Shown: positions 13,077-19,978 of the stretch, piece after piece
Layout: every line of letters begins with the position of its first letter
How positions within the stretch are numbered: position 1 is the first letter of the stretch
Origin: an uncultured Ectothiorhodospiraceae bacterium
Lineage (GTDB): Bacteria; Pseudomonadota; Gammaproteobacteria; UBA6429; Thiohalophilaceae
Length of the DNA: 64,000 bases
Reading direction: 5' to 3'
NCBI GenBank assembly: GCA_947259575.1
Contig: CAMYMU010000012.1
Span: forward strand, 62,001 to 126,000
Translations under genes and position numbers: made by a program
Notes under the pieces: generated by a model
The model's input: only the letters and a program-made list of their open reading frames with translations
The model's database searches: none
What the model was told of the DNA's origin: nothing

Positions 13077-13910
13077 CTAGAGTGCTTTTTCAATAAGCTG
13101 TAGAAATTGCTGATCATTCTCTACTTTCCACAGGTCAGTGGTATGAATGGTGTAACCATATTGCTTGGCAATATTTTCATAACGTGGAATACGCGCCTTA
13201 AACAGCCGGGGAAAGACCCAACGTACAAAATCGTCCGGCTCGATCATTGCGACATAATCAAGATTCTTTTCTTTTAAATACACGTCAAGTTGCTCGTCGA
13301 GGAAAGCCTCTCGGTAGTAAAGAGGCTTAGGATCGGATTCGGCTCGGCGTATCAGTTCTTGCTCATCCTGTTTGGGGGCTTTGATATATACCAGCAGGGT
13401 ATGCTCCGCGAGTAATTCAAGGGTGGCGGGATCATCCAGCTCGCAGACACTACCACCGGCATCATTGATAAAGTGTTTATAGCCATAAATGCTTTGCGCT
13501 TTCTGAATGAACGCCGGAACGTCGCGCATTGCGGCTATTTCGGCCTCATGGTGCAATGCCTGGCGTCGTTTGAACTCATCCAGGGGCTGACCGTCGTGAT
13601 CCGGATTACCAAGCTTGCCGAGAAAACTGGAGACAGGTTGCAGGTTATCAACGGTAATGTTGTTTGATATATATATAGAGTCATTCCGCAGCAAATCGCG
13701 CAAAAAAGGAATCTGCATGACTTGTTGCTTGATGTTATCCAGGATCGGTTCATCCAGATAACGGGTACCAATACGATAGTCACCTGAGTAATGAAACCAG
13801 TTGTGCTGACGGAGCATTGCGGCCAGACGCGTTTTACCCACACCCGACATGCCTAGCAAGGTGATGGATTTATGCTCCCAATTTCGAAATTCGTTTACGC
13901 CAAGTTTCAT
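13077..13910 (-). CDS. P-loop ATPase upstream of metA
   Basis: The ATG at 13910 has an AGGAGT site and gives a 277-residue protein; an upstream ATG at 13961 has none. A Walker A motif LGMSGVGKTRLA lies at about residues 19-30 and a HFINDAGGSVCELDD segment may be the Walker B region. The N-terminal portion looks like a nucleoside-kinase or GTPase-type P-loop fold; the rest is unfamiliar. I recognise no enzyme family precisely. The tight spacing to metA suggests a linked role in methionine or one-carbon metabolism, but this is only context. Confidence 0.8.
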   Translation of the reverse strand: MKLGVNEFRNWEHKSITLLGMSGVGKTRLAAMLRQHNWFHYSGDYRIGTRYLDEPILDNIKQQVMQIPFLRDLLRNDSIYISNNITVDNLQPVSSFLGKLGNPDHDGQPLDEFKRRQALHHEAEIAAMRDVPAFIQKAQSIYGYKHFINDAGGSVCELDDPATLELLAEHTLLVYIKAPKQDEQELIRRAESDPKPLYYREAFLDEQLDVYLKEKNLDYVAMIEPDDFVRWVFPRLFKARIPRYENIAKQYGYTIHTTDLWKVENDQQFLQLIEKAL

Positions 13911-14088: not shown

Positions 14089-15252
14089 ATGGCACGAGCG
14101 ATTGTTTTCTTAACAGGTTGGATAGGATTCATCCTACTGGTTACAGCCCTGATCCACTTCGGTAAAACCCTGCAAACTACTGGTAATGCTGAAGAGTATA
14201 AGACTGTCACGCTAGTCTATGAGAATGACACCTTTCAGGAAATTCAGAAAGCGTATCAGGACAAGGACTATCTAACAGCGTTGCAGCTTATTGATGAGCA
14301 TGAGGCAACCTTTGCCAACCTGCCTAAAGATAAAAACGAGCTTGGTTATCACTTCTATCATTTAAAAGGTCACGTTCACTCATCGCTGTGGCAGCATGTC
14401 GAAGCTGAGTCTAGCTGGTCTACGGCGATTGGACTTACCACTAACGTTAGGTACCGCGAGAAGCTCGCTCGCCTGATTAAAGCTAGTGGACTTATTATCG
14501 ATGATATAGGTGGTGAGCGTAGTCAGCGTTCATACTATCAGGCCAGTCCTTATGTTGGACCTGCAGCCACATTGAAAGGCAAAATTGCGGTGGCCTACGT
14601 TTTCCTAACCGATGGTGCATTACAAAGTTGGAGTATTCGTAAACGTAATTTTGTGATGAATAACTGGTCATTGGCTGAAAACTGGATGAAGGTTCATAGC
14701 AAAAATTATGCTGAAGAACCAACCTTTGTACAGCGCTTATTTTTAGTCGAAAAAAATCCACATATTAAACGCCTGAAGGTTGGCGATTACGATATGAATT
14801 TTACCAATGCGGACAAGGTTGCGCAGTTAGTAGCAGAACACTTTGGCTTTAGCAATATGCTGGCCTTTCTGAGAGAAATCAAAAAACAGGAAGATGCTGA
14901 TCAAGCTATCCTCATGTTACACCTGGCCAGAGATGGTCGTTCATTTGCCAGTCGCTGTATGTATAGTTGCCAGTCAGATGCTGAGTTTGTTTTTCTTATG
15001 GAAAAACCAAATTCGAAATTCTGGCAATCAATGAGCTATGCACAGGCACACGAGGCACTGCATCTGTTCGGTGCTGATGATCTTTATAATATTGATAAAG
15101 CTAAATACTATGCTGTACGTGACATTATGAATTATCCATCGAATGTTCTGGCGGCAAGTACCATGGATGATATTACTGCTTATGCAATTGGTCTGACCAA
15201 GACCAAACCAAAAACACCATTTAAAATTAGAAATTACTCAGCGGGGAGATAG
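14089..15252 (+). CDS. Membrane-anchored metzincin-like metalloprotease candidate
   Basis: An N-terminal transmembrane helix (about residues 5-25) precedes a region with a TPR-like helical hairpin (about 50-125), then a C-terminal domain. Residues 321-331 read HEALHLFGADD, which fits the metzincin zinc signature HExxHxxGxxD, and DIMNYPS at 345-351 looks like the Met-turn that follows it in this clan. A DDITAYAIGL helix after the Met-turn is similar to matrixin-type ends. I infer a zinc peptidase exposed on the periplasmic side; the overall family is not one I can name. It is followed after three bases by a DUF350 gene, so the pair is probably one operon. Confidence 0.75.
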   Translation: MARAIVFLTGWIGFILLVTALIHFGKTLQTTGNAEEYKTVTLVYENDTFQEIQKAYQDKDYLTALQLIDEHEATFANLPKDKNELGYHFYHLKGHVHSSLWQHVEAESSWSTAIGLTTNVRYREKLARLIKASGLIIDDIGGERSQRSYYQASPYVGPAATLKGKIAVAYVFLTDGALQSWSIRKRNFVMNNWSLAENWMKVHSKNYAEEPTFVQRLFLVEKNPHIKRLKVGDYDMNFTNADKVAQLVAEHFGFSNMLAFLREIKKQEDADQAILMLHLARDGRSFASRCMYSCQSDAEFVFLMEKPNSKFWQSMSYAQAHEALHLFGADDLYNIDKAKYYAVRDIMNYPSNVLAASTMDDITAYAIGLTKTKPKTPFKIRNYSAGR

Positions 15253-15255
15253 TCA

Positions 15256-15483
15256 ATGGAAGTCACCAGCTTATTTCAAACTATGTTAAATTTACTTGTT
15301 AGTTTGGGTTACGCGATCATTACGCTGCTTGTTAGTGTGACGACGCTTTATATGATCGATCACTTTTTTTATAAGCAAATCGATTTTATTGAAGAGATTA
15401 AAAAAGGGAATATTGCAGCAAGTATTTTTTACAGTGTGGTGCTGTTATTTGTTGCGATTATTGTCACGATATCAATTAACTAA
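15256..15483 (+). CDS. Small DUF350-like membrane protein
   Basis: The 75-residue product has two transmembrane helices (about 10-33 and 52-73) separated by the segment FIEEIKKGNIAASI, which matches the 'E(I/L)..GN.AAA' core of DUF350. Typical DUF350 proteins carry two such units of about 65 residues; this one has only one. It begins three bases after the stop of the metalloprotease-like gene with a GGGGAG site inside that gene. Single-unit DUF350 proteins may need to oligomerise; function is unknown. Confidence 0.75.
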   Translation: MEVTSLFQTMLNLLVSLGYAIITLLVSVTTLYMIDHFFYKQIDFIEEIKKGNIAASIFYSVVLLFVAIIVTISIN

Positions 15484-15540: not shown

Positions 15541-16020
15541 TTAATCCCCACACACTTTTTTGCTGCTACTGATCATGCCGGCACTACCACCGCCGCCACC
15601 ACAGCCACCAATCGTAACCTTGATAAAGCTTTTCCCCCCAAGTAACTGGCCATTATCAAGTTTCGCAACGGCATAGAGATTACTGCTTTCTCTTAACCGA
15701 ATTCGTGTTTTTAAATTAGTACTGAGCATTTGCTCAGATAGAAAAAATTTTGCGACAGGTTCTTCACGGAATTCATTATAGAAACTAACTTCCTGTACAA
15801 AACGACCTTTGGGTATAGATTTGATCTGATCGATACCGACACCCACAACAGCACCATTTTCAGCAATATCAGGTGCGATCATGTCAATGTCATTTGCTGC
15901 TATTGTTGCGCCCCCATAATGTTTGCTTACGCAAACAGGCAATTGATTTTGAGTTGCATAACTTAGTGAACTGAGCATCGATAGAATCACAACGCTTAAG
16001 ATGAACTTAATGTTTTTCAT
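15541..16020 (-). CDS. SoxY-like sulfur carrier protein with extended C-terminus
   Basis: ATG 16020 has an AAGGAGA site and gives a 159-residue protein with a Sec signal peptide (about 1-22, ending LSYA). The remainder follows the SoxY fold and ends with STNLKTRIRLRESSNLYAVA, a LDNGQLLGGKSF turn and KVTIGGCGG. The GGCGG arm is the SoxY site whose cysteine carries sulfur intermediates. Unlike normal SoxY, the arm is not terminal: about 18 more residues follow, rich in Gly and Ser and ending KKVCGD with a second Cys. It lacks the twin-arginine leader common in SoxY, and no soxZ, soxA, soxX or soxB lies in the window. It may carry sulfur for a different enzyme or have been recruited elsewhere. 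Confidence 0.8.
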   Translation of the reverse strand: MKNIKFILSVVILSMLSSLSYATQNQLPVCVSKHYGGATIAANDIDMIAPDIAENGAVVGVGIDQIKSIPKGRFVQEVSFYNEFREEPVAKFFLSEQMLSTNLKTRIRLRESSNLYAVAKLDNGQLLGGKSFIKVTIGGCGGGGGSAGMISSSKKVCGD

Positions 16021-16059
16021 GTCTGTCTCCTTTATTGTTGTTGACATACATGACATTGC

Positions 16060-16183: not shown

Positions 16184-17485
16184 TTATTTTTTTTCTTGCA
16201 TTAAGGTTGTTAACTTTTTAATGACTTTTGGATCATCCCATGAAATAGCAGCGTTAATTCCGTAGTGAATTTTTCCATCAGGACCAATCACAAAGGTGGA
16301 AGGAAAAGCGATGACATTCCACTGTGCCGAGACAGTGCCTTGTCTATCTAATAAAACAGGAAACTCAACGTTGACCTGTTTTAAAAATTTTGTAATTAGC
16401 TTTTTCGATTCAGCATAATTAATTGAAATAAGCCTGAACGGTTTACCTTGCATTTTATTCTTTAAGCGATTGAGCGATGGAATTTCTTCAACACAGGGAG
16501 GGCACCAGGTAGCCCAGAAATTGACAACCGTGACTTTTCCCGTCAGCCCGTCTTCACTTAACAGGGATATATCCTGATCGTTAACATCTTTTAGGGTGAA
16601 GGGGATTGGCGTTGAGTCGCCTTTAAATTTCTTAAGCTCTATATCCATTCGTGCATCGTGAACCGTAGTGTCCTGTTTATACGCGATTGCTGGTTTCACT
16701 CTTTTAGTCTTGTGCAGAAGATTAAATATACCTGGTAGTTCATCGGGTAGTCTTTCTAACATGCTTGTGCTTGCCGGGTCATTGTCGTTGCTATAGAACA
16801 CCCCCGACACATCTTTCATTACTTTAAAATAGATATGATTATTGGTCTTAGTTAGCTTTTTCAGTAATCGTGGAAACTGCCAGGCTGAACCACGTCGTCC
16901 ACCCTGATAGATAAACAGGGGGATAGTCGATTGCTCTGTAATCGGCAGGTAGTCCGGCTCCATACCTAATTCGGGGATCGAGGCAAAAAAATCGGGTGAG
17001 AATAGGATCGCACCTGACAGATAGTCTTTATCGGGATTTTGATGCTGCCACAAAGTGGCACCCCGTAATACGGGAATAGCACCATAGGCACGGCTGAGTA
17101 GTATCACCTTCTTATTCGTTTGTTTGTGGGTTGCCTCGATAAGATCCACAATGTATTGAGCGTCCAGGTTACGCATAAAATTGGACGTCTTTGGTTGGAA
17201 GAGTAGTTCAGAAAAATCAACCTGCCATACTTCATAGTTACGATCAGCCAGGTCATGCAAGGTTTGGTGGAGTCGACTGGATGGTGAATAGCTGGAAACA
17301 ACCCAAATAAGCACAGTATCGCCATCTGCCGGGTAGTGGTTAGCAATAATCTCGGTCCCGTCTTTTGCTTCAAAAGAAATTTCAACTTCAGAGGCAATGC
17401 TTGTGTTCTTCGCAAAACTTAGTTGTGCAAAAGTAGATGTAGAAGCAATGAGCAGAATTTGTAGTAACAGGGAGAACTTGTGCAT
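16184..17485 (-). CDS. Alpha/beta-hydrolase-like domain fused to a TlpA-type thioredoxin
   Basis: A signal peptide (about residues 1-25) directs this 433-residue protein to the periplasm. Residues 35-265 look like an alpha/beta-hydrolase fold, but the usual nucleophile elbow GxSxG is replaced by LSRAYGA, so esterase activity is doubtful. The last 150 residues form a TlpA/ResA-like thioredoxin with WATWCPPC as the redox motif and a cis-proline segment (IAFPSTFVIG). It would reduce or oxidise a periplasmic partner. The SoxY-like gene lies next on the same strand after 163 bases, and a thioredoxin that keeps SoxY cysteine usable is a reasonable inference by analogy with SoxW. The PP2C gene precedes it by 14 bases. 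Confidence 0.85.
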   Translation of the reverse strand: MHKFSLLLQILLIASTSTFAQLSFAKNTSIASEVEISFEAKDGTEIIANHYPADGDTVLIWVVSSYSPSSRLHQTLHDLADRNYEVWQVDFSELLFQPKTSNFMRNLDAQYIVDLIEATHKQTNKKVILLSRAYGAIPVLRGATLWQHQNPDKDYLSGAILFSPDFFASIPELGMEPDYLPITEQSTIPLFIYQGGRRGSAWQFPRLLKKLTKTNNHIYFKVMKDVSGVFYSNDNDPASTSMLERLPDELPGIFNLLHKTKRVKPAIAYKQDTTVHDARMDIELKKFKGDSTPIPFTLKDVNDQDISLLSEDGLTGKVTVVNFWATWCPPCVEEIPSLNRLKNKMQGKPFRLISINYAESKKLITKFLKQVNVEFPVLLDRQGTVSAQWNVIAFPSTFVIGPDGKIHYGINAAISWDDPKVIKKLTTLMQEKK

Positions 17486-19066: not shown

Positions 19067-19194
19067 GGTTTGATTTTATGCTGCTATCTGTATTTACGCC
19101 AGCAGCATGTTATAAATCGAAAAATACAATAAGGCATGAAACTGAAAACTATGCTATCTATATAACCCATCAGATTTACTTTAAGGAGCCGGTC

Positions 19195-19978
19195 ATGAAA
19201 CAGATTATTTGGTTATTGGGATTATTTATTTTTTCGGCTACTGCGCAGTCCAAGGTAATTACACAAGAAGTCAAATACCAACAGGGTGGGACGAACCTGG
19301 TCGGCTTCATTGCTTATGATGACGCAATCAAAGGTAAGCGCCCTGGTATTTTGGTTGTACATGAGTGGTGGGGACATAATGACTATGCCCGTGATCGCGC
19401 ACGTCAACTTGCCGAAATGGGCTATGTTGCATTTTCACTGGATATGTATGGTGATGGTAAAACGGCGGATCACCCCAAGGATGCAGGGCGGTTTGCGGGC
19501 CAGGTAAAAAATAATATGGATACTGCTGAAGCGCGTTTTAATGCTGCCAGGCAACAATTAGTTGCTAGTCCCTATACGGATTCAAATAAACTGGCTGCAA
19601 TTGGTTATTGTTTTGGTGGCGGCATCGTCCTGGAAATGGCGCGGCGTGGTAGTGACAAAAGGGGTTGTAAGTTTTCATGGCAGTTTAGGTACTAGTTCGC
19701 CTGCACAGAAGGGCAAAGTTAAATCAAAGGTTTTAGTCTTCAATGGCGCAGCCGATCCTTTTGTTAAACCTGAAGCAATATCGAGTTTCAAGCAGGAGAT
19801 GAAGAAAGCCGGTGTCGACTCCACCTTTGTCACTATGCCGGGTGCAAAACACTCTTTCACCAATCCGGGTGCGACCGCAAATGGCAAAAAATTCAATTTG
19901 CCACTGGAATACAATGCTGACGCCGACAAGCGTTCCTGGCAGCAAATGACAGAGTTTTTCCAAAAGCTGTTCAAGTAA
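19195..19978 (+). pseudogene. Dienelactone-hydrolase family gene interrupted by one extra base
   Basis: The first frame starts at ATG 19195 (AAGGAG site), with a signal peptide and the family motifs VVHEWWGHNDYARDRARQ and GYCFGGG, where the Cys is the usual nucleophile. At AAAAGGGG (19657-19664) one additional base throws translation out of frame, ending soon after at 19695. Reading the +1 frame from there restores KGVVSFHGSLGT, the catalytic Asp region (NGAADPFV) and His (PGAKHSFTNPG) to a stop at 19978. Without the extra base the whole is a normal 260-residue dienelactone hydrolase. It is either a recent mutation or a homopolymer error in the assembly. Confidence 0.85.

Follow-up and report, generated by a model that had tools for sequence, protein, structure and literature searches.

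A two-gene unit in the window (the whole stretch of 64,000 nucleotides that was analysed) encodes a membrane-anchored protein whose predicted structure supports a divergent metzincin with a putative zinc site, followed by a very small DUF350 protein (DUF350-s). The two probably constitute a two-part inner-membrane peptidase in which DUF350-s would position or gate an exchangeable periplasmic head. We rate two aspects as new, namely the metzincin family together with its two-gene arrangement and, unexpectedly, the linkage of its small partner, in other genomes, to an unrelated peptidase type. The features of the pair and the loci of the second peptidase type are collected in Table 1.

Table 1. 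Features of the peptidase/DUF350-s pair (window coordinates) and loci in which DUF350-s adjoins a transglutaminase-like protein (locus coordinates)
Feature	Position	Strand	Basis
Membrane-anchored metzincin-like peptidase, 387 aa	14089..15252	+	Translation, homologues, AlphaFold2 model, Foldseek
Single N-terminal TM helix, residues 4-22	14098..14154	+	Hydropathy and charges; model helix 2-30
TPR-like region, six helices, residues about 34-141	14188..14511	+	Model, pLDDT mostly >90
Metzincin-fold domain, residues 148-382	14530..15234	+	Model and Foldseek; distant relative modelled too
Zinc-site motif HEALHLFGADD: H321, E322, H325, third-ligand candidate D331	15049..15081	+	Translation, homologues
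Met-turn DIMNYPS	15121..15141	+	Translation, homologues
Single-unit DUF350 protein (DUF350-s), 75 aa, two TM helices	15256..15483	+	
DUF350-s loop between helices, DHFFYKQIDFIEEIKKGN, conserved, predicted cytoplasmic	15358..15411	+	
DUF350-s with membrane-anchored transglutaminase-like protein	L071:1480-2575, L072:1501-2612, L079:703-1771		
DUF350-s with membrane-anchored transglutaminase-like protein	L080:1462-2571, L081:1441-2545, L134, L135		

A preliminary description of this DNA had read HEALHLFGADD and DIMNYPS as the zinc site and Met-turn of a metzincin, lying behind a transmembrane (TM) helix and a TPR-like region. Translation places the two motifs at residues 321-331 and 345-351, as described, and the layout was also recovered, with one TM helix by hydropathy and a TPR-like region ahead of the catalytic domain in the structural model. 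No Pfam or NCBIfam family was matched above its cut-off, and neither a cleaved signal peptide nor a pro-segment was recognised; weak, sub-threshold matches to the YbeY and YneA profiles were set aside, the Pfam YbeY match spanning the HxxxH stretch. One homologue (L078) gave weak TPR profile matches, and the myxobacterial members are without the TPR-like region. In six of the latter (L015, L016, L018, L019, L098, and L099), its place is taken by an N-terminus that is rich in Pro, Gln, and Tyr and presumably cytoplasmic, and in which a YVGPxWAAPGPYR-like motif recurs directly ahead of the TM helix.

The AlphaFold2 model of the window peptidase, built from a 16-sequence alignment (pLDDT 87, pTM 0.81), runs from the TM helix through the six-helix TPR-like region into a strand-helix-strand-helix-strands-active-site helix-Met-turn succession. 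The expected metzincin N-subdomain (a 4-5-stranded sheet, a backing helix, and an active-site helix) and C-terminal helix are present, with strands at residues 165-173, 212-220, 272-279, 286-289, and 299-304, the backing helix at 183-205, the active-site helix at 312-325, and a short C-terminal helix at 361-366. When the model was compared with the PDB by Foldseek, metzincins made up 50 of the 50 matches listed (probability 0.97-1.00), led by ADAMTS-5 and fragilysin and including ADAM-8 and snake-venom metalloproteinases, with TM-scores to the target of up to 0.58. The core of a myxobacterial protein with 23-24% identity to the window peptidase was modelled independently (pLDDT 80); this second model had an identical order of elements and matched fragilysin, ADAM8, TACE/ADAM17, and ADAMTS. 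Both predicted structures thus retrieved almost only metzincins from the PDB, in support of the metzincin reading. Searches of the PDB by sequence, with a protein or a profile query, yielded no metzincin, so that the fold assignment depends on the predicted structure, and a viral structure library gave no significant match. Across the PDB matches, TM-scores to the target were moderate (about 0.25-0.6, lower for longer targets) and rmsd was high, which marks the domain as a divergent metzincin outside the known families. None of the curated profiles for known metzincin families (adamalysin, pappalysin, matrixin, archaemetzincin, and others) was matched above its cut-off, and reprolysin profiles scored 13-17 bits in relatives, below cut-offs of 22-27.

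The window peptidase is most like the adamalysin/reprolysin-type metzincins (M12B-like: ADAM, ADAMTS, snake-venom metalloproteinases) and fragilysin, with which it shares the predicted fold, HExxHxxGxx(H/D), and a Met-turn. These are its best structural matches, yet they have only 10-17% identity to it, and it differs from them in the Asp as third-ligand candidate, the bacterial inner-membrane anchor, and the absence of any profile above cut-off.

Conservation of the zinc site was assessed in a homologue set of 24 distinct peptidase members. Five homologues from the same order, with only 45-53% identity to the window peptidase, keep the zinc motif, in which only the third and fourth positions vary, and the RDIMNYP Met-turn; two cysteines, C290 and C294, are likewise invariant within the order. 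Among the readable members, His321, His325, Gly328, Asp331, and the Met are invariant even at 17-25% identity, a pattern for which chance does not account. Residue 330 varies (D/A/Y, giving GADD in the window peptidase, GAAD in Aliikangiella relatives, and GAYD in two myxobacteria) and Asp331 is constant in every member that can be read at the third-ligand place (unreadable in L056), as expected from the metzincin motif HExxHxx(G/N)xx(H/D) (PMC11674741). Met347 follows the first His at a spacing of 26 residues in 22 of 24 members (an insertion extends it to 33 in one, and another cannot be read), and the Met-turn occurs as DIM, DVM, EVM, or ELM. The HExxH on which the preliminary description had relied is kept among the orthologues, the sole exception being a distant planctomycete relative (HAVLH). 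Such a member without the Glu would suit a metzincin fold kept as a non-peptidase binding module; we consider this very improbable, since H, E, H, G, D, and Met occur in all other readable members across 17-53% identity and every readable member linked to DUF350-s has the full set. The planctomycete protein itself (L020:5704-6780, HAVLHLFGADDLY), with Ala for the catalytic Glu and no DUF350-s nearby, is possibly an inactive member.

The partner gene follows three bases behind the peptidase gene (last stop-codon base at 15252, ATG from 15256) and its product is half-length, both as previously described: Pfam DUF350 (PF03994) was matched with 31.3 bits (cut-off 26) over profile positions 69-132 of 133. 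By hydropathy and profile, DUF350-s consists of one unit of two TM helices, without the repeated 4TM/8TM arrangement, and it is the sole DUF350 match in the 3.45-Mb genome. With its relatives, it forms a separate, tight sequence group (at least 80 bits, versus at most 45 for ordinary DUF350), and D35, E47, G51, N52, and A54, the last just past the loop between the helices, are invariant in 14 members. A weak DUF350 match in genome G026 was rejected as an ordinary DUF350 of 283 aa. Peptidase relatives were absent from the viral contigs and plasmids searched and DUF350-s relatives from the plasmids searched, and a mobile-element reading was dropped, as was a defence reading, with no PADLOC match.

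Within the window, the gene upstream of the pair is divergent from it and the downstream gene is convergent, so that the peptidase and DUF350-s genes form a unit of their own. The preliminary description had asked whether homologues always neighbour DUF350. Linkage held for 21 of the 24 members, which adjoin DUF350-s, but not for all: L020 and L021, the most distant members, have none nearby, and L018 is cut by the contig start. The linked members span two phyla, with the partner behind, in front, or convergent. In the same order, the peptidase was found in 5 of 40 genomes and DUF350-s in those same five; neither protein occurred alone in the 40, and no further genome gave a strong DUF350-s match. 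These five loci represent one lineage, as they have flanking genes in common, and part of the linkage within the order goes back to common descent at a single syntenic site. The metzincin is present in 8 of 40 Aliikangiella-family genomes, each time with DUF350-s directly behind it. Myxobacterial loci have DUF350-s in front of the peptidase (L015, L016, and L019), convergent beside it (L098 and L099), or about 500 bp off on the other strand (L017). A Myxococcota-wide search with a full-length alignment found nothing beyond the centre genome; candidates seemed to be inflated by low-complexity N-termini, and later searches used a core alignment. The outer flanks differ by lineage (TetR-like; TpiA-SecG; nitrilase-TldD/PmbA; glutaredoxin-sucCD; and others, names read from translations), and the linkage is therefore specific to the peptidase/DUF350-s pair.

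Two Aliikangiella-family genomes contain DUF350-s and no metzincin. Each has, as the gene next to DUF350-s, one for another kind of membrane-anchored protein, whose site reads RGDCEDHA...GHAWVV; both proteins pass the Pfam CEP76 peptidase-like cut-off and one also that of Transglut_core. Searches with DUF350-s as sole bait covered 398 genomes from the phylum, 318 from the myxobacterial class, and 366 from the window's own class. All eight new strong matches (80-102 bits) adjoin a membrane-anchored peptidase, which is a metzincin in three (G951, G1342, and G1343) and a transglutaminase-like protein behind DUF350-s in five (G841, G845, G1052, G293, and G388), while ordinary DUF350 loci in 42 further genomes (at most 45 bits) have neither peptidase type within about 1.5 kb. 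The bait alignment included two transglutaminase-linked sequences, so that recovery of this subgroup is unsurprising, and the informative point is that no strong match was without a peptidase partner. In total, seven DUF350-s genes are followed by one for a transglutaminase-like protein; each of the seven proteins exceeds the CEP76 peptidase-like cut-off of Pfam, and six exceed that of Transglut_core as well. From their sequences, these proteins are predicted to be cysteine peptidases. They are like BTLCP/LapG (Pfam C93) and CEP76 peptidase-like proteins in the (R/H)GDCEDHA..GHAWV site, here with a TM anchor, but fall below the C93 cut-off except for L080 (27.2 versus 27) and far below LapG, and the window itself contains no such partner. 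Of the undescribed membrane peptidase system proposed earlier, the pairing is therefore real, but its constant part is DUF350-s with a membrane-anchored peptidase and not the metzincin itself, since the single-unit DUF350 is also paired with an unrelated transglutaminase-like peptidase. Additionally, a short DUF350 of 113 aa in a planctomycete (G414, L076:3241-3582) lies between DUF4178-like and spermidine-synthase-like genes (names read from translations), the polyamine-type setting already known for DUF350; it is thus membership of the DUF350-s group, and not the single unit alone, that implies a peptidase partner.

DUF350-s is above the Pfam DUF350 cut-off, like YjfL/DUF350 (UPF0719), from which it differs in being one two-helix unit with a peptidase neighbour instead of PspA/polyamine genes. 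YjfL-type DUF350 proteins have 4TM and 8TM forms that are found in operons with PspA, glutathionylspermidine-synthetase-like ATP-grasp, and spermine-synthase genes (PMC11237479), and for YjfL, the longer relative, a hexameric channel model and a link to heat tolerance have been published (PMC12492005). Within the literature covered, the relevant paper (PMC11237479) mentions no peptidase partner of these forms. The longer forms, and the amide cleavage common to transglutaminase-like enzymes and metallopeptidases, would allow DUF350-s to be a small channel or transporter of a YjfL-type polyamine/envelope-stress system, with the peptidases hydrolysing peptides or amide-linked small molecules that it produces or transports. 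This is improbable, however, given that DUF350-s is a sequence group of its own and that no PspA, ATP-grasp/polyamine, DUF4178, or DUF1190 neighbour was recognised in the window or related loci, whose flanks were read and in some cases profile-scanned.

In the peptidase, basic residues (MARA-, MKR-) stand ahead of the single TM helix and the catalytic domain follows it, which by the positive-inside rule places the N-terminus inside and the catalytic domain in the periplasm; the invariant C290 and C294 would suit such an oxidising compartment. Gammaproteobacterial DUF350-s members have no basic residue at the N-terminus and 3-5 in the interhelix loop, so that the loop is predicted to be cytoplasmic, an assignment by the positive-inside rule alone, as acidic residues equal basic ones in number there. 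About 10 DUF350-s residues are predicted to lie outside the membrane on the periplasmic side. This leaves little to cleave if DUF350-s were instead a substrate of the peptidase, or protected from it, in a toxin/immunity-like or regulated-proteolysis pair; the constant pairing and the retention of the small protein when the peptidase is exchanged would be in keeping with that, but the substrate would need to be shared by two unrelated peptidase types and no defence profile was matched, making it the kind of explanation to which we give almost no credence. DUF350-s might also be no more than a biogenesis factor, stabiliser, or safety partner that helps insertion or silences the peptidase until assembled, with no sensing. 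The tight coupling, the tiny size of DUF350-s, and the common layout of two unrelated catalytic types, each a periplasmic domain on a TM anchor, agree with a general anchoring factor of this sort; we nevertheless regard it as rather unlikely, because the strongly conserved charged cytoplasmic loop (D35, E47, GNxA) suggests more than passive insertion and most TM-anchored peptidases of bacteria are not known to depend on a factor of this kind.

In the preferred reading as a two-part peptidase, the larger protein would be a metzincin tethered by one N-terminal helix with its predicted zinc site towards the periplasm, His321, His325, and Asp331 being the putative zinc ligands and Glu322 the putative general base. 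DUF350-s, with its two membrane helices, short periplasmic ends, and conserved charged cytoplasmic loop, would be a dedicated partner that probably oligomerises and may bind the membrane anchor or juxtamembrane part of the peptidase, and this binding would place the peptidase or switch it on. The metzincin and transglutaminase-like partners share only the anchor-plus-periplasmic-domain architecture, and DUF350-s thus most likely acts at the anchor or juxtamembrane part, whereas the TPR-like region, missing in myxobacteria, is not a general docking site. DUF350-s would be the part that stays constant and the peptidase the module that is exchanged, other genomes using a transglutaminase-like cysteine-peptidase homologue. 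The most likely purpose would be turnover of envelope proteins upon a membrane or cytoplasmic cue, and an envelope-stress role for the pair can reasonably be inferred by analogy. It is conceivable, if not quite probable, that single-unit DUF350-s proteins are a general partner class that recruits and gates membrane-anchored periplasmic peptidases of unrelated catalytic types; if true, interchangeable proteolytic heads would be under the control of a single conserved two-helix device.

The proposed arrangement would work much like ADAM17/iRhom2, in which a membrane-anchored metzincin is likewise joined by a polytopic membrane partner; structure 8snm of this sheddase is among the matches of the myxobacterial-relative model. 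As a difference, iRhom, a large rhomboid pseudoprotease, has no relation to DUF350. The pair contributes a metzincin family that neither Pfam nor NCBIfam covers, gives the smallest DUF350 form a concrete, testable role as partner or gate of envelope proteolysis, and is unusual in that a single membrane partner is linked to peptidases with two unrelated folds.

The upstream gene (13077-13910, minus strand) encodes a P-loop NTPase with no Pfam family above cut-off; it lies beside a metA-like gene, and this arrangement, divergent from the pair, is kept in relatives of the order. The downstream gene (15541-16056, minus strand) encodes a SoxY-like secreted protein (74.7 bits), and the product of 16184-17485 (minus strand) reads as a fusion of an alpha/beta-hydrolase-like part with a TlpA/thioredoxin-like C-terminal part. 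Further on, a dienelactone-hydrolase-like gene (19078-19978, plus strand) is apparently split over two overlapping frames, which appears to reflect a frameshift or sequencing error around 19.6-19.7 kb.
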